Assembly (NCBI RefSeq): GCF_029338355.1
Contig: NZ_CP119802.1
Location: forward strand, 1,674,001-1,738,000
Reading direction: 5' to 3'
DNA: 64,000 bases
DNA from: Halosegnis marinus
GTDB lineage: Archaea > Halobacteriota > Halobacteria > Halobacteriales > Haloarculaceae
Shown here: piece by piece, positions 4,209 through 52,003 of the stretch
Layout: each line of letters begins with the position of its first letter
Numbering within the stretch: the first letter of the stretch is position 1
The notes under the pieces: model-generated
What the model was told of the DNA's origin: nothing
The model's input: the letters and a program-made list of their open reading frames with translations, nothing else
Databases searched by the model: none
Translations under genes and position numbers: made by a program

Positions 4209-4334
4209 CTGCGGTCGCCGAGGCCACGGCAGGTGCCGACGGCTCCACGGCTCCATCCGTCCGCCCGTCGGCCGACGGAGCTCCGGGTAAGTGATTTGTT
4301 CCTCCGGTCGCCTACTGCCCGAGGAGTCGAGACC

Positions 4335-5219
4335 ATGCCCTCGGAACACGGTCCGGTCGACCCGTCGTCGGTTCCGGCGTTGGCCGACGAGCTGAACAGC
4401 GAGGACCCATCGACCCGGCGGACGGCCCTCGACCGGTTGGCCGCCCTCGCCGACTCGGACCCGGAGTACGTCCTGTGGGTCGAGGAACCGATACTCGACC
4501 GCCTCGACGACCCGGAGCCCGAGATACAGGCACGGGCCGCCGAACTGCTCGGGGAGTTGGGCGTCGATGACGCCGAAGGGCGACTCCGCGACCTGCGGTT
4601 GCACACGGACACGCGGGTCAGCGACGCCGCCGCCGACGCGCTGCGGGCCTTGGAGAACGCGCCGACGCTCTCGCCGGAACGGCCCCCCGAGCGACCGACG
4701 AACCCGACGGCGGACGCCGGTTCGACGGCGGACGCCGGTTCGACGGAGGCGACGGGCACGACCGGGGAACGTACCCGAAACAGCCGGGCGGAGACCGTTT
4801 CGGCGGACACGAATTCACCCGACGACTCACCGACCGATGTGACGAGCGGCGACGCGACCGGGTCGCCCGCGCCCGCCGGCACGGACGGGGCGCGGAAGGA
4901 GGAGCAACGACACGAGCGTGAGTCGGCCGCGACTCGGGACGACGCCGGGAGCCGTCTCCGTTCCGCCGCGGTGTCCGCGCTGTACGGCGTCCTCGGGATG
5001 GTCTTCGCCGTCCTGCCGGTCTTCATCACCACGGACATCCCGTCGTTCGCATCGACGTCCCGTATCGCCGGCACCGTCGCGATGGGGGGCGGTTTCGTCC
5101 TGTTGGGGGCTGCCGCGGGCCGCGTGGCCGGCGTCCGCAACAGCACCACGCGCGGTATCGCGGTCGGCGGGACGCTCGTCTTCCTCACCGCGTTCGTGTT
5201 GGTCTTCCTGACCGTCTGA
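4335..5219 (+). CDS. HEAT-repeat protein with C-terminal membrane anchor
   Basis: A 294-residue protein. Residues 1-115 are helical HEAT-type repeats with the usual pattern (DPSTRRTALDRLAALADSDP; DPEPEIQARAAELLGELG). Residues about 120-205 are a low-complexity acidic Thr/Ser/Asp linker containing an 18-bp tandem DNA duplication (4706-4741). The C-terminus has three hydrophobic segments (ALYGVLGMVFAVLPVFI; IAGTVAMGGGFVLLGAAAG; GIAVGGTLVFLTAFVLVFL). It is probably a membrane-tethered adaptor. The start at 4335 (MPSEHGPVDPSS) is preferred over an upstream ATG at 4233, because the extra residues are basic. The gene at 48173-49489 also joins HEAT repeats to membrane helices, in the opposite order. 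Confidence 0.75.
   Translation: MPSEHGPVDPSSVPALADELNSEDPSTRRTALDRLAALADSDPEYVLWVEEPILDRLDDPEPEIQARAAELLGELGVDDAEGRLRDLRLHTDTRVSDAAADALRALENAPTLSPERPPERPTNPTADAGSTADAGSTEATGTTGERTRNSRAETVSADTNSPDDSPTDVTSGDATGSPAPAGTDGARKEEQRHERESAATRDDAGSRLRSAAVSALYGVLGMVFAVLPVFITTDIPSFASTSRIAGTVAMGGGFVLLGAAAGRVAGVRNSTTRGIAVGGTLVFLTAFVLVFLTV
4706..4741 (+). repeat. 18-bp tandem duplication inside the HEAT protein linker
   Basis: Two perfect copies of GACGGCGGACGCCGGTTC (4706-4723 and 4724-4741) encode a repeated TADAGS-type hexapeptide in the disordered linker. Replication slippage in GC-rich coding sequence is the likely origin. Confidence 0.85.
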
Positions 5220-38563: not shown

Positions 38564-40816
38564 CTATACGGTGACGTTCCCCCCCGTATTGACAGCCTGC
38601 TCCGACACCCGTACCGTCTCTTCACTAACAGTGTAGTTACCTGGGTACGGGACGGTAACCCGGTAGCTCCCGTCCGCCCTGACCCTGACTTTGCGCTCGT
38701 AGGTGACAGACCGGTCATTAAGTTTCAGGGTTGTCGTCACAGTAATAGTTGAGCTCGGTGCTGCATTCCCTGAGATGGTCGCCCCGGGTACGAGCGTGAA
38801 TACACGATATTGCCCCGAAACGTGGACTGCACGGTAGTGTGCGAGCCCAGTCGCGTTCGTGGTCCGACTACCGAATGCGGCCAGTTGTGCGCCAACGCTC
38901 CCCGGTGGCGTCGCTTCTCCGGCGAATACGACGAACCCAGTCCGATCGCGCAGTCGCTCGTACCAGCGCTCGGGGTCTTCGCTGACAAGAAACCGTGCGT
39001 AGTTGTCCTGTGCGAAGGTGTACGAACGCGACTCGCCGTTCACGAAGTAGTTATACATCCTGTTGCGGTCCCACTGGCTGAATACGTAATCTTGCGGATA
39101 CTCCCAGCCCGCCTCGTCTGAGTACCCGTTCATCCATGCTGCAGTTTGGTATTGGGTATCGGTGACTGTGAGTTGGTTGATTTTAATTGGGACCTGCACA
39201 ATGCCTAACCCACCGACGAGCAGGAACAGCACGAGTAGTGTGATTATTTGCCGTCGCCCCGGAACAACGAACGACCGTCCGTCTGAGCTTGGGTCAAATG
39301 GAACTGGAGGCCGTGCTACGTCGATACGTTCGGCAAGATGGACGAACCCGAGCCCGGCGAACAGCGCGGAAAATATCGAAAACTCACCAACGAAGCGAAT
39401 CTGGAGTGTTGCCAGTCCAAGGAGGTACCACCCAAAGACTACCGGTACAACCCAGCGAAGGTCCTCAAGCGCCCTCCAAGACGCCCACGCCAAATATGGG
39501 ACTGCAAGAACGAGAACGAAGCCGAACAGGAGCAACCAACCGAACGACGGGCCGAAGAGGTTCTGGGTCTCGACAATCACCCCTTCACGGACCAACCTGA
39601 CGGTCACGCTCCGCACGACCAACCGCCAGAGATCGGGACGCAGAACCGACACCAGTCCGATTGCCAGACCCCCAGCAAAGACCTCTCCGAGAAACACATA
39701 CCGTGCGGTCAGCTCCGTCCTGTGAACAGCCTCACCGATGGCTGCGACAGCAAGGCCACCCCCCAGCACAATCAACGGCGCAGCCGCCCCCAGCGACGTG
39801 TGCCACCCGAGCACCGTGTGGACAATCCAGACGACTACACCACCTCCCCCAACCCCCAACAGTACGGGTGCTATCGTTCTGGCTGGCGATCGACTATGAT
39901 AAACGGCTAGGATGGACAGTACGGCTATTGTGAGTCCGACCGGGATGAGTAGCAAGACACTCGCGTCCCAGGCGAGCGTCTGTCCGGCCACACCTACCCC
40001 CAACCCACAGACCCCGAGAATGGTTTGATCGGACCGGTGTGCGCTGGCGATTAACACGGCCATCGACAGCACGACAAGTGCGAGCCAGATATAATCGAAG
40101 GCGTGGTGGTCTGCGAACCCGAGACTCGTACGCATCGCGTGGCCGGGGAGGACGCCGAGAAGTGCGACCGAAGCAATGCCAACTCGCTGGTCACCGCTAA
40201 TCTTGACACCCAGCAGGTAGAGCATGACTGCGGTGAGACCGGCGGAGACGACCGGATACCAGCTCATAACATGCCCCACCGCTGCTCTTGTCCCCCCGAA
40301 CACCTCTGCCCCCGCCCATAACGCCACGATTAACAGTGGTTCCCCATTTGCCACGCCTCCCGGGAGATTGCCCACCGATATTTCTGAACCGCTGACCAGC
40401 TGCTCAACCCAGTATCTGTACAGGTACGGATCGTTCCCAGAGAGAATGATGGTTCCCTCCTGAAAAATCCTTGGCCAAGAGACCAAGCGAAGCGCAATGA
40501 CAAGTAGTACTGCGCCACCGAGTGTGGCGGTAAGCTGCGGGTCCAGCGAGGGGACTGAAATCCTCGGGCCGGCCTCGCCCCCCGTTTCGAGATCACTGTC
40601 TAGCGCTCGACGGACGGCCTCCCGGTCAACGACGCGGTAGGCTCCGTCCTCGGTTTTCGTAATCGCACTTGATGCAGCAATCTCACCGAACGTACCTGAG
40701 CTGAGGTTCAGATCATCGAACCTGAACGGCTCGTCGGCAGCAAGAACCGCACGAAATGCGGACTCAAGCTCGGGCCGATTATCCACGAGTGAGCGAACCT
40801 CGCGGGTGATACTCAT
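38564..40816 (-). CDS. STT3/AglB-like oligosaccharyltransferase paralogue with N-terminal winged-helix-like domain
   Basis: A 750-residue protein. Residues 1-75 look like a small winged-helix-like domain (FRFDDLNLSSGTFGEIAASS; GAYRVVDREAVRRAL). Then come about 12 membrane segments, with STT3 landmarks: SGNDPYLYRYW at 126-136 in the first external loop, and SLGFADHH at 231-238. A soluble C-terminal domain starts near 560. The STT3/AglB WWDYG sequon-binding motif is replaced by QWDRNRMYNYF at W582. Canonical haloarchaeal AglB is longer (over 900 residues). It could transfer the island's glycan to protein or another acceptor. It shares 27-nt TATA-to-ATG spacing with its paralogue at 49578-51843. 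Confidence 0.75.
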   Translation of the reverse strand: MSITREVRSLVDNRPELESAFRAVLAADEPFRFDDLNLSSGTFGEIAASSAITKTEDGAYRVVDREAVRRALDSDLETGGEAGPRISVPSLDPQLTATLGGAVLLVIALRLVSWPRIFQEGTIILSGNDPYLYRYWVEQLVSGSEISVGNLPGGVANGEPLLIVALWAGAEVFGGTRAAVGHVMSWYPVVSAGLTAVMLYLLGVKISGDQRVGIASVALLGVLPGHAMRTSLGFADHHAFDYIWLALVVLSMAVLIASAHRSDQTILGVCGLGVGVAGQTLAWDASVLLLIPVGLTIAVLSILAVYHSRSPARTIAPVLLGVGGGGVVVWIVHTVLGWHTSLGAAAPLIVLGGGLAVAAIGEAVHRTELTARYVFLGEVFAGGLAIGLVSVLRPDLWRLVVRSVTVRLVREGVIVETQNLFGPSFGWLLLFGFVLVLAVPYLAWASWRALEDLRWVVPVVFGWYLLGLATLQIRFVGEFSIFSALFAGLGFVHLAERIDVARPPVPFDPSSDGRSFVVPGRRQIITLLVLFLLVGGLGIVQVPIKINQLTVTDTQYQTAAWMNGYSDEAGWEYPQDYVFSQWDRNRMYNYFVNGESRSYTFAQDNYARFLVSEDPERWYERLRDRTGFVVFAGEATPPGSVGAQLAAFGSRTTNATGLAHYRAVHVSGQYRVFTLVPGATISGNAAPSSTITVTTTLKLNDRSVTYERKVRVRADGSYRVTVPYPGNYTVSEETVRVSEQAVNTGGNVTV

Positions 40817-44565: not shown

Positions 44566-45414
44566 CTACGCGCCCGCGATGTCCGTGTTCACGATCGCGT
44601 CCGTGTCCACGTCGAGCGCCGAGAGCACCTCCGCGACGGAGCTCTCGCTCGCTCCTTCGCCGCTCGTATCGTCGACGGCGCCCAACACCGCCCGCTCCAG
44701 CTCATCGAGTCGCTCGGTCACCTTCTCCAGGTTCAGCACGCGCGGCGCGAGCGTCAGATACGTCGTGTCGCCGCGGTCGTAGAGGTCCTCGGTCGTCATC
44801 TCCGGGAGCCGGCCAGAGGCGTCGTCCGCGTCGGACTCGTCCCCCTCGTCGCCCTCGACCGTCACGTCCAGCTCGCCGAGGCCGGCGACCGTGACGGGCG
44901 ACGCAAGCTCCACGGGGCCGTCACAGATGGCCTGGGGGAGAATCGTGGTCGCGCCGTCGAGCCGCGTGTCGCCGTGGCTCCGGAACGTGTAACACAGCGA
45001 GTCCTCGACGGCGAGGCTCCGGTCGGCCGTGACGATGCCGAGGACGACACAGTTCTCTAAGACCAACTCGGTGCCGACGACGTTGCCGCGGACGACGCAG
45101 TCGGTCAGGCGGACGCGCTTGCCGGTGACCGTCCCCTCGACGGTCGCGTCCGAGCCGACGACCTTGCCGGGCGTGCCGACCTCGCCGTGGACGCGGCCGC
45201 CCTCCAGTTCGACGGCGTCGGCGGCCATCACCGACCCCTCGACGGTCGCGTCGGCGTCGGTCTCGACGGTCGCCCCGTAGACGCTCCCCTGGACGGTCGC
45301 GCCCTCGCGGATGCGAACGGGGCGGTCGAGCTCCGCCTGCACCGTCGGAATCACCTTCCCGTCGAACGTCTCGCCCGCCTCGACGACCGCGCGGGTCCGC
45401 TCGATGTCAGCCAT
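44566..45414 (-). CDS. Bactofilin-like polymer-forming beta-helix protein
   Basis: A 282-residue protein, last gene of a four-gene operon. Residues about 30-150 show short beta-helix repeats of bactofilins: REGATVQGSVYGATVETDAD, ATVEGSVMAADAVELEGG, RVHGEVGTPGKVVGSDATVE and RLTDCVVRGNVVGTELVLEN. A less regular part and an acidic linker follow; the C-terminus (225-282) is helical and may be coiled coil (VLNLEKVTERLDELERAVL). Bactofilins self-assemble into filaments and scaffold envelope processes; in haloarchaea related halofilins affect cell shape. No membrane segment. The ATG overlaps the preceding stop by one base. Confidence 0.75.
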   Translation of the reverse strand: MADIERTRAVVEAGETFDGKVIPTVQAELDRPVRIREGATVQGSVYGATVETDADATVEGSVMAADAVELEGGRVHGEVGTPGKVVGSDATVEGTVTGKRVRLTDCVVRGNVVGTELVLENCVVLGIVTADRSLAVEDSLCYTFRSHGDTRLDGATTILPQAICDGPVELASPVTVAGLGELDVTVEGDEGDESDADDASGRLPEMTTEDLYDRGDTTYLTLAPRVLNLEKVTERLDELERAVLGAVDDTSGEGASESSVAEVLSALDVDTDAIVNTDIAGA

Positions 45415-46367
45415 CAGTCGTCACCCCCTTCGATCCGCACCGGCACCGAGCCGTCGTCGGGCATCGCCTCGCGAACGGCCTCGCCGTACGACGGCGCGAG
45501 CGGCGTGGATTCGCTGTAGTCGGAGAGGTGTCGGGCCACCGCGTCGGCCGATAGCGACTCGGTTCGGCTCGGCTCCGAGACGCCCGGTGCGCCGGCCAGG
45601 AGCTGTTCCGCCCCCTCGAACGGGTCGAGCGAGACGCGACACCACTCGCTGTCGGCGTCCGTCGCGAGCGACGACGGCACGACGACCTCGCGCTGGGTGA
45701 CGCCGTCTGCCTCGTACTCGACGACGTAATAGGGGACCTGCAGGCGCTCGCGCTCGTCGGTCGGGAGCCTGGTTCCCTCGGCGTCGAACCGGTGGTCGCG
45801 GACGGTCTCGATGAGCGACTCCTGGCGGTCCACGAAGTCGTGGATCGTCTGGACGGTGTCGCCCGCGGCCTCGCGGACGCGGTCGCTCCGCTCGTCGCCC
45901 ACGGATTCGTTGTGCGCCTGGAGTGTCCGCCACGTCGGCGTCACCTGCTCGGTGAACGGCTCCTCGATGCCGGCCTCGAACTGCTCCTCGTCGAGCGCGA
46001 AGATGTGTTCGCCGAGGTCGCGGATGCGCTCGCGGGCCTTCTCGTCGAGTTCGCGCTGCTGGCGCTCGTAGCGGTCGCCGATGGAGGCGAGCCGTTCGTC
46101 GAGTTCCGCCTGTTCGGCGTCGATCTGCTCGTGTTCGGCCTCGATCTGTGGCTCCACCGCTTTCACCTCCATCACGTGGTCCATCAGCTTCAGCTCCGCC
46201 TGTGCGTGGATGTTCTCGTGAATCGCATCCCGAACCGTCTCGGCCGCCTCGCGGATCACCGAGTGGACCTTCTTGACCTCGCCGGTGAGCGTCTGGACGT
46301 CCTCGCGGAGCTTCGCGATTGTCTTGTTAATCGCCTTCAGCGGCTTGTGGAGGTCGTCGTTCGCCAT
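45414..46367 (-). CDS. Soluble coiled-coil protein of the scaffold operon
   Basis: A 317-residue acidic protein. Residues 5-130 are long heptad-rich helices (INKTIAKLREDVQTLTGEVKK; EQAELDERLASIGDRYERQ), then more helices to about 190. The C-terminal part (about 195-300) is beta-rich with RLQVPYYVVEYEADGVTQRE and a conserved-looking CRVSLDPFEGAEQLL. No membrane segment. It overlaps both neighbours by one base (stop-start TGATG), so all three downstream genes are translationally coupled. Likely an assembly or linker factor. No homology recognised. Confidence 0.75.
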   Translation of the reverse strand: MANDDLHKPLKAINKTIAKLREDVQTLTGEVKKVHSVIREAAETVRDAIHENIHAQAELKLMDHVMEVKAVEPQIEAEHEQIDAEQAELDERLASIGDRYERQQRELDEKARERIRDLGEHIFALDEEQFEAGIEEPFTEQVTPTWRTLQAHNESVGDERSDRVREAAGDTVQTIHDFVDRQESLIETVRDHRFDAEGTRLPTDERERLQVPYYVVEYEADGVTQREVVVPSSLATDADSEWCRVSLDPFEGAEQLLAGAPGVSEPSRTESLSADAVARHLSDYSESTPLAPSYGEAVREAMPDDGSVPVRIEGGDD

Positions 46368-48052
46368 CAGTCGTCACCCCCCTCGTAGGCAGTAGCTCGC
46401 ATCAGCGGCAGCCGGTCTTTCCCCATCTTGAACTGGTCAATGCGGTCGATCAGTCCCGTGCCGCCGCGGGTCTCTATCATCCAGTTCTCCCGGTGGTGAC
46501 GCTTCTCCATGTCCATCTCCTCGCTGTGTAGCTCGCCCCGCTGTTGCATCTCCGCCATCGTCCGCCGGTCCTCGCGCTCCTGCCGCGCCATGAACATCTC
46601 GGCTTCGCGGCGCCGCTTTTCGGCTCGCATCGTCTCGGCTTTCTCCTCGGCCGCTTTCTGTGCGGCGTCGATGCGTTCCTGCTCCTGGTTGCGCGTCTCC
46701 TCCAGGATGCGGTCGGTTTTGCGGTCGATCTCCGCGAACGACTCCTCGACCTCGCCGCGGAACGCCTCCTTGCGCTCCTCCTGGATGCGGTCGTACTTCA
46801 CCATCAGTTCGCCGATCTCGTCGACCTTCCCTCGCGATGCCTTGGCGTCGGTCTTCAGGTCGCGGATGCGCGAGCGGAGGTCGCGGATGCGGTCGGTCGA
46901 AGAGCGGATCTCCTCGCTGCGCTGCTCGAACTCCCGCTCTTCGAGCTCGGCCTTCTGATCCTCGATGTTCTCGTAGATGCGGCGGCGCTCGTCGTCCTTC
47001 TCGATCCACAGCTGGTCCCACACCGGGTTGACGAGGTCGTCCTTGATGCGGTGGCGCGGGACGACCGCCTCCGTCTCGTGGTGGCTCCGGCAGGTGTCGC
47101 AGTACCACTCGCCGGCCTCGGGGTCCGAGAGCTCGACGAGCGAGTCGATCTCGTCGGTCAGACAGTCCGGGCAGTAGAAGTTGTAGCTCACCAGCCCGAA
47201 CGCGTCGGCGGTCGTCCCGATGTGGTTGTTCAACAGGTCGACGGCGGACTCGTGGGCGCCGGACAGCTCGCCGACGAGCTCGCGGCTCCGCTCGGAGACG
47301 GCTTCGAGCTCCGCGGCGCCGTCGGCGGTCGCGGCCATCCGTTCGAGTTCGGCGAGTTCCGCGACGTCGGCCTCGGCGTCGTCGGCGTCCACCTCGACGT
47401 CGGCGGCCACGGTCGTACCCTCATCGGCCCGTGAAGCGAACGCCTCGACGGCGGCCGCCTCGGGACCGCTCGCGGGCACGACGGGCGCCTCGACGGTCGT
47501 CCGGTTCGCGTTCTCGATCTCCGACTTGATGCCGTCGAGCGTCCGGGTGAACTCCGCCTCGACGTTCCGGTCGTGCGGCATTACAACCGGGAAGTCGCCC
47601 ATCGCGTCGAGTTCTTCGCGGACGGCGCCGACGGCGTCCTCGTCGTCGAGCCGTTCGAGGTCGAAGCTCGTCGTCTCGACGGAGTCGGTCGCGTCGTAGA
47701 CGACGACGCCCGCCTCGTCGGGAATCGTGTAGCCGGTCCAGTACCCCCGATCGACGCTCTTCACCGTGACGTCCGGCGTCTGTCGCTGCGCGTAGAGGTA
47801 GGCGCCACCGCCGGCGGCGAGCCCGAGAACTATCAGGACGGCGCCGACCGCGACGCCGACGTTGGCCGCGATGGCCCCGATACCGAGAACGACGCCGGCG
47901 ACCGCCGCCGCCGCACCCAGCCGGCGCGTCGAGCGCTGGTCGTCGAGCGCCGCCGACACCGGCTCCCGGAGGACCTCGTTGACGGCGAGCGCGCGGGCCC
48001 GCTCCTCGTCCACGGGGTCGTCGGCCTCGTAGAGGACATCCGTTACGCGCAT
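46367..48052 (-). CDS. Membrane-anchored zinc-ribbon coiled-coil protein of the scaffold operon
   Basis: A 561-residue protein. Two adjacent membrane helices lie at about residues 45-90 (LGAAAAVAGVVLGIGAIAAN; VGAVLIVLGLAAGGGAYLYA). A soluble domain follows with a zinc ribbon at about 293-325: FYCPDCLTDEIDS and EWYCDTCRSHHE. From about 345 to 530 there is a very long charged coiled coil (EERKEAFRGEVEESFAEIDR; QEQERIDAAQKAAEEKAETM). It resembles a membrane-bound rod. The ATG is at 48052. It overlaps the next gene's start by one base. No known family recognised; a scaffold or mechanosensing role is a guess. Confidence 0.75.
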   Translation of the reverse strand: MRVTDVLYEADDPVDEERARALAVNEVLREPVSAALDDQRSTRRLGAAAAVAGVVLGIGAIAANVGVAVGAVLIVLGLAAGGGAYLYAQRQTPDVTVKSVDRGYWTGYTIPDEAGVVVYDATDSVETTSFDLERLDDEDAVGAVREELDAMGDFPVVMPHDRNVEAEFTRTLDGIKSEIENANRTTVEAPVVPASGPEAAAVEAFASRADEGTTVAADVEVDADDAEADVAELAELERMAATADGAAELEAVSERSRELVGELSGAHESAVDLLNNHIGTTADAFGLVSYNFYCPDCLTDEIDSLVELSDPEAGEWYCDTCRSHHETEAVVPRHRIKDDLVNPVWDQLWIEKDDERRRIYENIEDQKAELEEREFEQRSEEIRSSTDRIRDLRSRIRDLKTDAKASRGKVDEIGELMVKYDRIQEERKEAFRGEVEESFAEIDRKTDRILEETRNQEQERIDAAQKAAEEKAETMRAEKRRREAEMFMARQEREDRRTMAEMQQRGELHSEEMDMEKRHHRENWMIETRGGTGLIDRIDQFKMGKDRLPLMRATAYEGGDD

Positions 48053-48172
48053 GTGTCCCCCTCCACCGAACCTGCGGCGGTGTCACGGTCGGTCGTCACC
48101 GCGCCGTCGGGCCGGATGCCCGACGACACGTCGGTTCCCCCTTCGTCTCGTGTGTGATATCGTCGCATGCTC

Positions 48173-49489
48173 TCAGTCGATGTTCCGCAGTGCCCGCGTG
48201 GCCGCTTTGCTCACGTCGCTGTTCGGGTCGAGCCGGGTCCGTTCGAGCGTCGCCCTGACGCCGTCGCTTCCGGTGCCGAGCCGCCCCAGCGCCTCACACG
48301 CCGCGACACGGACATCCGGGTCGTCGTCGTGCATCCGCTCGGTCAGGGCGTCGATTGCCGCCTGTGAGTGGACGCCGTCGCCCGCGTCGTCGGCGAGCGC
48401 CGCGACGGCCTCACGGCGGGTCGCGGGGTCGTCCGCGTGCAGCCGGTCGCGGTAGGCATCGACCGTCGCGTCGCCGGTCGACCCCGTCGTCGGCTCGTAC
48501 TCGCCGGCCGACGCGGTCTCGCCGGTCGTTTCCTCATCTCTCCCCGTCTCGTCGTTCGGACTGCTCGCTGTCGTTTCGTCGTCGTTCGCCGCGCTCGGCT
48601 CCGCCGTCTCGCTCGTGGACGCACGTGACTCGGTCGCGGTCGACGTCGTCGCCGTCGACGTCGTCGCCGTCGAGGTACCCGAGTCGGACGACGATACGGT
48701 AGCGCCGTCCGTCGGCTCCGCTGATGCCTCGGCGGAGGACTCCGTCGTCCCCGACCGGGTTGGCGCGTCGTCCGTCCGACCGCTCGCCGACCCCCACGTC
48801 GCGGGCCGTGTTCGGTACCCCGACCACAGCAGACCGGCGCTCGCGGCCGCGCCGCCGAGTAGCGCCGCCGGCTCGTAGCCGCCGGAGCCGAGCAGGGCGT
48901 AGCCGAGTGCTCCGGGACCGTCCCACAGGCCGACGACCGACGCGAGCAGGAAGTCGGGGAGCGAGCCCCGGATCAGATACGACGGGACGACGAACGCCGC
49001 CCACGCGGCGCCGAGATACCAGCCCCACGAACTCCCCCGAGTGAGGCCGAACGCGGCCGCGCCGGTCACGGCGACCGGGCCGACCACCCATATCGGCTGT
49101 GCGGCGACGGCCTCGATCGGCGAGAACGCCACGCCGTCGAGGTACAGCACCGGCGCGAAGACGTTCGCGACGACCGTGACGAGGCCCGCCACGAACAGGT
49201 GGCGACGGAACCGGAGTCGGCCGGCGTCCCTCGCCGTCGAGGCACCGAGTGTCGTCGCCGTCGCGGCGCTCGTTGCGGCCGTCCCGGCGTCGTCGGACTC
49301 GTCGTCGTCAGTTCCACCGCCCGTCGTCTCGGGCTCGGCCTCCGTGTCGTCGAGGTCGAACTCGTCCCACGTCTCGTCGTCTCCCCCGCGACGGCCGAGG
49401 ACCCAGCGGACGACCGTCACCGGCAGCAACAGGAGTTTGACGAACGCTCGAACTAGGAACCGTAGCAACTTCAGCGTGAAGTACACCAT
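48173..49489 (-). CDS. Membrane protein with C-terminal HEAT repeats, first gene of the scaffold operon
   Basis: A 438-residue protein. A hydrophobic amphipathic N-terminus (VYFTLKLLRFLVRAFVKLLL) and about five membrane segments between residues 95 and 230 (HLFVAGLVTVVANVFAPVLYL; PIWVVGPVAVTGAAAFGL; YLGAAWAAFVVPSYLI). A Ser/Thr/Asp linker follows, with a short tandem DNA repeat near 48636-48675. C-terminal HEAT repeats run from about 345 (DDPATRREAVAALADDAGD; DDDPDVRVAACEALGRLG). It lies 120 nt upstream of the zinc-ribbon gene on the same strand; I infer one operon. A similar HEAT/membrane protein occurs at 4335-5219. Confidence 0.75.
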   Translation of the reverse strand: MVYFTLKLLRFLVRAFVKLLLLPVTVVRWVLGRRGGDDETWDEFDLDDTEAEPETTGGGTDDDESDDAGTAATSAATATTLGASTARDAGRLRFRRHLFVAGLVTVVANVFAPVLYLDGVAFSPIEAVAAQPIWVVGPVAVTGAAAFGLTRGSSWGWYLGAAWAAFVVPSYLIRGSLPDFLLASVVGLWDGPGALGYALLGSGGYEPAALLGGAAASAGLLWSGYRTRPATWGSASGRTDDAPTRSGTTESSAEASAEPTDGATVSSSDSGTSTATTSTATTSTATESRASTSETAEPSAANDDETTASSPNDETGRDEETTGETASAGEYEPTTGSTGDATVDAYRDRLHADDPATRREAVAALADDAGDGVHSQAAIDALTERMHDDDPDVRVAACEALGRLGTGSDGVRATLERTRLDPNSDVSKAATRALRNID

Positions 49490-49577: not shown

Positions 49578-51843
49578 CTACGCCGACACCGTCTCGCCGT
49601 CCTCGACCGCTGCGTCCTCGACGGTCACCGTCCGGTTCCCGATCTCGTACGTCGCGGCGTAGGGGACCGTCACCCGGTACGTGCCGTTCGCATCGACCGC
49701 GACCCGGCGCTCGTACGTGAACTCCGTCCCGCTCACCTCGACGGTCGCCGCGAGGTCGAGCGTCGTGTTCGCCGTCGCGTTGCCGACGACCGTCGCCCCC
49801 GGCACGAGCGTGAACGCGGTGTACTCGCCGTCCGGCGAGACGTGTATCGCCCGGTAGTGTGCCAACCCCGAGGCGTTCGCCGTCCGGCTCCCGTACGCCT
49901 CCAGCCGTTCCGCGATACTCCCCGACGGGGCGTCGAGGGTCGGGTACACGACGAAGCCCGCGCGCCCGCGGAGGCGTTCGTACCACGTCGTCTCGTTCGT
50001 CGACGCGAGGAACGACTCGTAGTTCGCGCGTGCGTAGCCGTACGAGCGTGCCTCCCCGCTCACGACGTAGTTGTACATGCGGTTGTTGCTCCACGGACTG
50101 AACACGTACGCCGGGCGGTCGCTCCGGTTCGCCGTCTCGGTGTATTCGTCGATGGCCGCGGCCGTGTCGTACATCGCGGGCGGCGTCGTTACCTGCCCGG
50201 TCTTGACGGGCACCTGGACGAGGCCGAGGCCGCCGACGAGCAGGAAGAGGACGACGAGCGCGCCGGCCTGTCGTGCCGACGGACGCGTCACGAGCGAGCC
50301 GTCGACCCCGGAATCGAACGGCTTCGGCAGGCGTGCCACGTCGATGCGCTCCGCGAGGTGGACGAACCCGAGGCCGGCGAAGACGCTAATGAACGTCGCG
50401 AACTCCCCGACGAACCGGATTTGGATCGCCGAGAGCGCGAAGAAGGCCCACGCGTAGACGACGGGGACGACCCACGCGTCGTCGTCGAGCGCGCGTCGCG
50501 TCGCCCAGACGAGATACGGGAGCGCGAGGAAGAGCACGAAGCCGAACAGCAGGAGCCAGCCCGCGGAGTCCGAGAACAGCCCCTTGCGTCTCGGCGATGG
50601 CGTCGGAGCGGAACAGCGCGGAGTCGGCCCGCGAGGTCAGCGTGTTCCACGCGTCGGGGAGGAAGACCGCGATGCCGCCGACGCTCACCGCCCCCGTCCC
50701 GAGAATCGCTCCCGTGGCCACGCGTGCGTCCGACCGTACCCGAAAGACGAGTTCGCCGACGACGAGCACGCCGAGGGCCCCCGCGAACAGGAGTGCCGGT
50801 GCCGACGCGACGACGGGCGTGTGCCAGCCGAGGCTCGTGTGGGCCAGCCACGTGAGTGCGCCCGCGCCGGCTAGCCCGACGAGCATCGGGGCCCCGGACC
50901 GGAGCGGCGACCTGTCGGCGCGAACCCACACGACGGCGAGCGTCGCGACGGCCAGGCCGACCGGAACCACCAGCAGCGGGCCGGCTTCCCACGCGAGCAC
51001 CTGGCCCGTGACGCCGACGGCGAGCCCGAGCGTCCCGAAGACGGTCCGTCCCGACCGGAGCTCGCCCCGGACGAGCGCGACGAGCGACAGCGCCGTGACG
51101 CCGAGCCACGGGTAGTCGAAGGCGTGGTGGTCGGCGAAGCCGAGGCTCGTTCGCAGTGCGTGGCCCGCGACGACCGCGAACATGACGACGGCCGCGAGCC
51201 CGACGCGGCGGTCCTCGGTGACCTCGGTCGCGAGCAGATACACGAGCGCGCCGGAGACGAGCGCCGAGACGACGGGGTACCACGCGAGCAGCGAGCCGGC
51301 GACGGCCTCGCCGCCGAGCACCGATGCGAGGAGCCACATCGTCGCGACGTAGAGCGGCTCGCCCTTCGCGACCGCGCCCGGCAGCGACGAGACGGTGAGG
51401 TCCGGGTTCGCCAGCAGCTGTTCGACCCAGTAGCGGTAGTAGTACGGGTCGTTCCCGGAGAGGACGACCGCGCTGTCTTGGAACACCGGGCCGACGGAGA
51501 ACACGGTTCGCAGGAGAACGACGAAGGCGAGCGCACCCGCGAGCGCGAGCGCGTGCATGAGATTGATGTCGAGACTCGGCGTCGCCAGCCCGGTTCCCGA
51601 TTCCGTCGGTTCCCGTCCGGTTTCGCCGGCGAGCCCTCGCCGGACGGCCTCGCGGTCCGCGACCCGGTAGCCGTCGTCGGTCTTCTCGACGACACCCGTC
51701 GAAACGACCTCGCCGAACGCGCCCGAGTCGATATCGAGGTCGTCGAAGGCGAACGGCTCCTCGGCCTCTACCACCGCCTCGACGGCGTCTTCGAGCGCGG
51801 GGCGCTCGTCGACCAGCTCCCGAACGTCCGCGGCGGTGACCAT
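49578..51843 (-). pseudogene. Second STT3/AglB-like gene, frameshifted by one base
   Basis: A 754-codon gene in two frames. Frame 1 runs from ATG 51843 and matches the paralogue at 38564-40816 throughout: winged-helix-like N-terminus (FAFDDLDIDSGAFGEVVSTG), SGNDPYYYRYW at 129-139, SLGFADHH at 233-240. At codon 421 the G4 run (complement of CCCC, 50580-50583) holds one extra G compared with the paralogue's reading, which shifts the frame. The second frame then continues intact (GWLLLFGFVLFLALPYLVWAT) to 49578. The WWDYG equivalent is W584-S-N-N (SPWSNNRMYNY). The clean downstream frame means a recent mutation or an assembly error. It lies just upstream of the divergent S-layer-like gene. Confidence 0.8.
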
Positions 51844-51863
51844 ACGCACGCGTGCGGTCACGG

Positions 51864-51876
51864 TCGAATAAATGCC
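51864..51876 (-). promoter_or_regulatory. TATA-like box of the second STT3-like gene
   Basis: Minus-strand GCATTTATTCGAC lies about 27 nt before ATG 51843, so the mRNA is probably leaderless. Motif and spacing match the box at 40839-40848. Confidence 0.55.
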
Positions 51877-52003
51877 CCTGTTCGCCCGCGGTTTCGCTGT
51901 TCTCGCTGGAGCTACTTCCCCCTCAAACCCGCCACCCATGCTAAAGCGTCACAAACGCACGCTACGGGGCTTGTAACGGCTGATTCCACCCTTGATTCAC
52001 ACA

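Follow-up and report, generated by a model that had tools for sequence, protein, structure and literature searches.

We analysed 64,000 nucleotides of the haloarchaeon Halosegnis marinus (contig NZ_CP119802.1, positions 1,674,001 to 1,738,000; termed the window), in which an earlier note, made from the letters alone, had singled out four adjacent genes as a possible cell-shape or membrane-domain apparatus. Three of them, termed B, C and D, make up a core whose members are linked in a fixed order, co-occur, diverge in step with each other and encode a zinc-ribbon protein with a membrane hairpin, a coiled-coil protein and a bactofilin-like protein; in some genomes this core lies close to an array of genes around a Vps4-like AAA ATPase. 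The fourth gene, A, encodes a membrane protein with HEAT repeats and is an optional partner of the core. In our judgement it is an even call whether B-C-D, with A where present, forms a bactofilin-type scaffold, anchored in the membrane, that acts together with archaeal membrane remodelling of a kind resembling the endosomal sorting complex required for transport (ESCRT).

The core is an all-or-none module that moves horizontally

All four open reading frames lie on the minus strand where the earlier note had placed them (Table 1), and the single-base overlaps it had reported for the last three are seen at both the B/C and the C/D junction. A lies upstream, is separated from B by 120 bases and stands outside the overlapping set. 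Nine of 195 genomes of the order contain B, and the same nine contain C and full-length D (more than 350 bits), so that presence is all or none; the remaining matches to the D profile are short or weak. In a larger sample of the order (n = 392), C gave 16 strong matches and a weak one, in G681. The 16 strong genomes include four named hosts, found in a scan of named genomes: Halorientalis regularis, Natronorubrum thiooxidans, Halorubellus salinus and Halolamina pelagica. B was found in 7 of 392 genomes of the phylum, one of which, G212, belongs to another class and has C and D behind B; judging from the small class, this host is probably a halophilic methanogen.

The order B-C-D on one strand is kept in all 17 canonical loci (the window, L012-L023, L035, L069, L071 and L072), including that of the archaeon from the other class. 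The genes are spaced by -8 to +3 bases, mostly with a one-base overlap; the exceptions in this set, which also includes the diverged locus L076, are L013 and L015, whose longer overlaps depend on the start codon chosen. Moreover, B, C and D agree in their pairwise distances between loci, with correlations of r = 0.92-0.96 across 16 loci, a level reached in none of 2000 permutations; left out of this comparison were L076 and L019, where B is split into two frames.

The core is found in about 4% of genomes, and in a joined tree of 16 loci the families are intermixed. B-C-D is an accessory module that has moved horizontally, and because it is rare and transferred it is not a general haloarchaeal shape gene. 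Carriage by plasmids or viruses was set aside, as tblastn found no relatives of B or D in 72,556 plasmids and the B profile found none in viral contigs. Some genomes hold remnants: a C-terminal piece of D only in G043, a second D fragment in G023 that is 96% identical over 93 amino acids, and in G051, where the main B is also broken, an N-terminal piece of B that contains stops.

A is an optional partner

That the four genes would occur together in other haloarchaea holds for B, C and D, which always come together, and fails for A, a homologue of which adjoins the core in only 10 of the 17 canonical loci. It does so in three positions: upstream on the same strand in six loci (the window, L012, L013, L020, L022 and L072), downstream in three (L017, L019 and L071), and divergently in L016, where another copy lies downstream. 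The N-terminal part of the A family is found, at the core, in six of the nine core genomes and in none of the 186 genomes lacking the core, save for a partial match in G038. Matches to the A profile as such occur in 70 of the 195 genomes; those in the other 64 come through the HEAT end, or in G038 through a short match in the membrane region. Two matches to the A5 profile were rejected. One, at L076 14158-14907 (63 bits), was not counted as A; Pfam assigns it a zinc ribbon and no HEAT repeats. Nor was the other, at window 4233-5219, which has HEAT repeats as well as three hydrophobic segments and is encoded about 40 kb away from the module. In three loci lacking A, an 81-residue membrane protein, also with three hydrophobic segments, directly follows D.

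Domain content of the four proteins

The earlier note had described A as a membrane HEAT protein and B as a membrane zinc-ribbon coiled-coil protein, and had recognised no family for two of the genes; all of this was borne out. A matches HEAT_2 in Pfam (E = 3e-13), has hydrophobic segments, and starts with a basic stretch whose residues 2-19 have a hydrophobic moment of 0.57 and a net charge of +4. B combines a hydrophobic hairpin, a C4 zinc ribbon (CPDC-x20-CDTC), all four cysteines of which are kept by every intact canonical B protein (16 of 16), and a long predicted helix. C is mostly helical in the AlphaFold model and ends in a small beta domain. Neither B nor C has a convincing family in Pfam, NCBIfam or PADLOC or a convincing relative in the PDB. 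In the PDB, B hits a designed repeat protein (3e-8 over 41 residues); this hit, as well as matches of B, C and the diverged C' (see below) to eukaryotic and other coiled-coil families in Pfam and NCBIfam, were taken as coil artefacts.

The rung of a bactofilin beta-helix is about 17 residues long. The hydropathy of D, taken over 17 sequences, has autocorrelation peaks at lags of 6, 11, 17 and 33, and D is therefore predicted to be a beta-helix with rungs of about 17 residues. A profile of D matches nine bactofilin-type proteins of the order with 91.9% probability over 76 columns, and 12 of 13 members of the D family match the Pfam Bactofilin model at E ≤ 0.1 (best 1.3e-6). Its conserved C-terminal segment is possibly a docking helix.

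A deeply diverged version of the core

Around the weak C match in G681 lie three genes, termed B', C' and D', in the order of the core. In profile comparisons with their canonical counterparts, B', C' and D' score probabilities of 96.9%, 95.7% and 85.7%; for D' against nine other haloarchaeal bactofilin-type proteins the value is 9.7%. These profiles support each of the three pairings, with B'C'D' a deeply diverged version of the B-C-D core. Among 170 genomes of that family, three have strong B' matches, and all three are from one genus. A fourth match, in G718, is weak, and nothing was seen in the surrounding stretch; in 209 genomes of the order no B' was found apart from one spurious match. 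A second diverged system, in G510, proved spurious. In each of the three genomes that hold it, B'C'D' comes after genes that encode a small membrane protein, a coiled-coil protein, an AAA ATPase, a membrane protein with a zinc ribbon and an SPFH protein, all on one strand.

Linkage to Vps4-like and SPFH arrays

A Vps4-like AAA array lies beside three of the 17 canonical loci (G109, G582 and G212) and beside B'C'D' in all three genomes of the diverged version. In G109 the coil, AAA, SPFH and small membrane genes share the strand of the core and come as close to it as about 3 kb; in G582 genes of the same four kinds are divergent from the core and start about 6 kb away; and in G212 the 14 kb or so upstream of the core hold one coil/AAA pair as well as a second AAA gene, itself preceded by a coiled-coil gene. 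The coil/AAA pair is present at all six array-linked loci, with the coiled-coil gene preceding the ATPase in each array. An SPFH protein, of the flotillin type, is present at five of the six and was not found near the core in G212; that of G681 has a double zinc ribbon and homologues in G732, G735, G109 and G582. A kinase gene lies within about 2 kb of the core in 4 of the 17 loci (L016, L017, L071 and L035). For the AAA protein of G582, the best NCBIfam model is CdvC (residues 9-375, E = 1e-51), which covers nearly the whole protein, at a score below the equivalog cut-off. By a rough hand estimate, 12 kb on either side represents about 1% of such a genome, and two independent linkages among 16 loci would be expected by chance about 1 in 100 times, the diverged version uncounted. 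Kinases and SPFH proteins are described as companions of archaeal ESCRT loci in the main text portions of PMC10936438.

In the G212 stretches (L035 and L105), which have 32-36% G+C, one stretch holds the B-C-D core together with two coil/AAA pairs and a kinase. At L014 5876-6415, downstream of the core and on the other strand, there is an NfeD-like membrane protein (below cut-off); NfeD-like proteins are often paired with SPFH proteins. Finally, two more genes in G582 and G212 resemble, by eye and position only, arCOG08177 and arCOG09748, which the same portions of PMC10936438 describe as companions of archaeal ESCRT loci.

A proposed scaffold for membrane remodelling and its alternatives

The hairpin, ribbon and rod of B, the amphipathic start of A, the helical C and the beta-helix of D fit a scaffold on the cytoplasmic face of the membrane. 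We envisage a single complex of B, C and D, which would form this scaffold at the inner face of the membrane. The hairpin would anchor B, with the zinc ribbon and the long rod extending into the cytoplasm; D would polymerise as a bactofilin-type beta-helix filament; and C might be the coiled-coil adaptor that bridges the two. A, where present, would be a further membrane partner that docks via its HEAT repeats. The scaffold may mark or stiffen a membrane patch, on which an ESCRT-like machine (a coiled-coil subunit and a Vps4-like ATPase), an SPFH protein and protein kinases would act, resulting in budding, sorting or membrane repair. With more hesitation, and at somewhat less than even confidence, we suggest that a filament of the bactofilin type, which a zinc-ribbon rod protein would tether to the membrane, could be an undescribed arm of the archaeal ESCRT-like machinery: a polymer platform for Vps4-like, SPFH and kinase partners that is common to two archaeal classes through gene transfer and has a diverged sister version.

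A number of observations weigh against this proposal. D matches Pfam Bactofilin (PF04519) at E = 1e-5, and its 26.2 bits fall short of the curated cut-off of 27.9, so that the label bactofilin-like, given to D by the earlier note, is supported by a weak but real profile match and by the beta-helix periodicity, not by the cut-off. AlphaFold gave models of low quality, with a predicted local distance difference test (pLDDT) score of 60.9 on average for B and 66 for C. The second AAA protein of G212 matches the CdvC/Vps4 model at 7e-64 but Cdc48 at 2.5e-72, both below the equivalog level; the best PDB relatives of this protein and of the G582 ATPase are VCP/Cdc48, with no Vps4 among the 60 listed, and the array ATPases have no match to the Pfam MIT domain. 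By the PDB comparisons, and partly by those with NCBIfam, the ATPases stand no closer to Vps4 than to Cdc48. The array coiled-coil proteins show no worthwhile Pfam or NCBIfam match and no PDB relative; the coil gene is a candidate ESCRT-III gene. As for linkage, no array was found in the window genome over about 36 kb of one flank of the core and 64 kb of the opposite flank, nor in the flanks of the 13 other canonical loci, which extended over 24-28 kb on both sides for six, 8 and 26 kb for two, and about 8 kb or less for five. G109 and G582 are sisters in the tree, and the canonical linkage may therefore represent two events rather than three. Finally, the approximately unbiased test rejected a single f7 or f4 clade and did not reject an f1 clade (p = 0.10), these groups having been picked after the mixing had been seen.

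The main competitor, which we regard as rather unlikely, is a scaffold for cell shape or surface curvature that resembles the halofilins and is unrelated to ESCRT, the arrays nearby reflecting shared genomic islands. It would suit the bactofilin-like D, since halofilins of Haloferax volcanii act on shape according to a review, and most canonical loci have no array nearby. In the window, moreover, the module is flanked by a surface-glycosylation gene and lies near an S-layer gene (named by eye); this neighbourhood, however, is not kept, as no conserved surroundings were seen across the 13 loci compared, and a functional tie of the module to these neighbours was dropped. A rarity of about 4% and the mixing between families would be odd for a general shape system, the genome has two further bactofilin-family proteins above the Pfam cut-off, from both of which D is distinct, and the array link is retained by the deeply diverged version. 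Because of the linkage to Vps4-like/SPFH arrays in some genomes, we favour membrane remodelling over shape. What stands of the apparatus that the earlier note had envisaged is a unit whose parts fit a membrane-attached scaffold around a bactofilin-like polymer; its core has three genes, not four, and is too rare and mobile for a general role in shape. Of the two outcomes which that note had said would speak against it, the genes being rarely together elsewhere and D failing the bactofilin profile, the former is not seen for the core genes, and D ends up just short of the cut-off.

A platform for membrane stress or repair of the PspA/SPFH type that operates independently of the Vps4-like ATPase seems improbable to us. 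SPFH proteins do lie beside the diverged version and two canonical loci, and the main text portions of PMC10936438 cite the YdjI-PspA link in bacteria as a precedent; it is the coil/AAA pair, however, that is present at all six array-linked loci, and SPFH at five. Anti-phage or other defence by a system with membrane and coiled-coil parts would agree with the patchy distribution, the horizontal mobility and the broken copies, with a weak match of B to the LmuB model (E = 8e-6) and with a weak integrase match near L023. However, no nuclease, NTPase or toxin domain was recognised in the core, plasmids and viral contigs yielded no relative, the LmuB match falls on the coil of B, and C matches many unrelated coiled-coil models. 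PADLOC matches are confined to the coils of B and C and the HEAT repeats of A, with none for D, and we set defence aside as quite improbable.

Coordinates of features and neighbouring genes

Table 1. Features of the module in the window and of the small protein that follows D in three other loci (named where coordinates are not those of the window).
Feature	Coordinates	Strand	Basis or remark
Gene A, membrane protein with C-terminal HEAT repeats	48173-49489	minus	438 aa; optional core partner
A N-terminal basic amphipathic or membrane helix, residues 2-32	49394..49486	minus	aligned across family
A HEAT repeats, residues 347-435	48185..48451	minus	Pfam HEAT_2
Gene B, membrane hairpin, zinc ribbon and long coiled coil	46367-48052	minus	561 aa
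B hydrophobic hairpin, residues ~44-90	47783..47923	minus	hydropathy and predicted helices 16-62, 67-90 (low-confidence model)
B C4 zinc ribbon, residues 294-321	47090..47173	minus	sequence
B continuous helix / coiled coil (predicted), residues 333-529	46466..47056	minus	AlphaFold model
Gene C, long coil and small C-terminal beta domain	45414-46367	minus	317 aa
C conserved beta segment, residues 214-246	45630..45728	minus	region common to C and diverged C'
Gene D, bactofilin-like beta-helix protein	44566-45414	minus	282 aa
D beta-helix region, residues ~17-180	44875..45366	minus	hydropathy periodicity and profile match
D conserved C-terminal segment, residues ~225-243	44686..44742	minus	conservation
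81-aa membrane protein	L015 6668-6913; L021 11463-11708; L023 11481-11726		

The gene adjoining the module encodes an oligosaccharyltransferase of the AglB/STT3 type (window 49578-51939) and is read in two frames, with an apparent single frameshift; an unbroken gene of the same blast cluster lies at window 38564-40816. In a genome of the same genus, compared for an empty insertion site, the S-layer gene is present, and the genes adjacent to the module have no homologue in the stretch examined; no empty site was identified.

Significance and relation to known systems

To our knowledge, bactofilins and the ESCRT machinery have been studied as separate systems. If the proposal is true, a cytoskeletal scaffold would be connected with archaeal membrane remodelling. 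The module offers a compact gene set for deletion and tagging, and B and C represent two protein families that are nameless in the libraries searched. Should the link to ESCRT fail, an all-or-none, horizontally moving three-gene scaffold module would still be a defined target for archaeal cell biology. No description of the module was found in the literature covered, which comprises text passages of sources that include PMC12186497, PMC7617734, PMC11985538 and the main text of PMC10936438.

Archaeal ESCRT loci as described in those main text portions of PMC10936438 resemble some of the core loci, which also have genes for a Vps4-like ATPase and a coiled-coil protein as well as for an SPFH protein and a kinase alongside. 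However, the main text of PMC10936438 does not contain the word "bactofilin", and the part covered here describes no protein like B, C or D. The window copy, moreover, is not linked to such a locus. The YdjGHI/PspA system of Bacillus likewise clusters zinc-ribbon membrane proteins with an SPFH protein and a coiled-coil remodeller, but has neither a bactofilin nor a Vps4, and the likeness is one of gene content. Finally, D shares with the bactofilins, including the haloarchaeal halofilins (PF04519), the beta-helix periodicity and a profile match over about 76-80 residues. It differs from them in its score below the cut-off, its longer helix region, its conserved C-terminal segment and its constant association with B and C.

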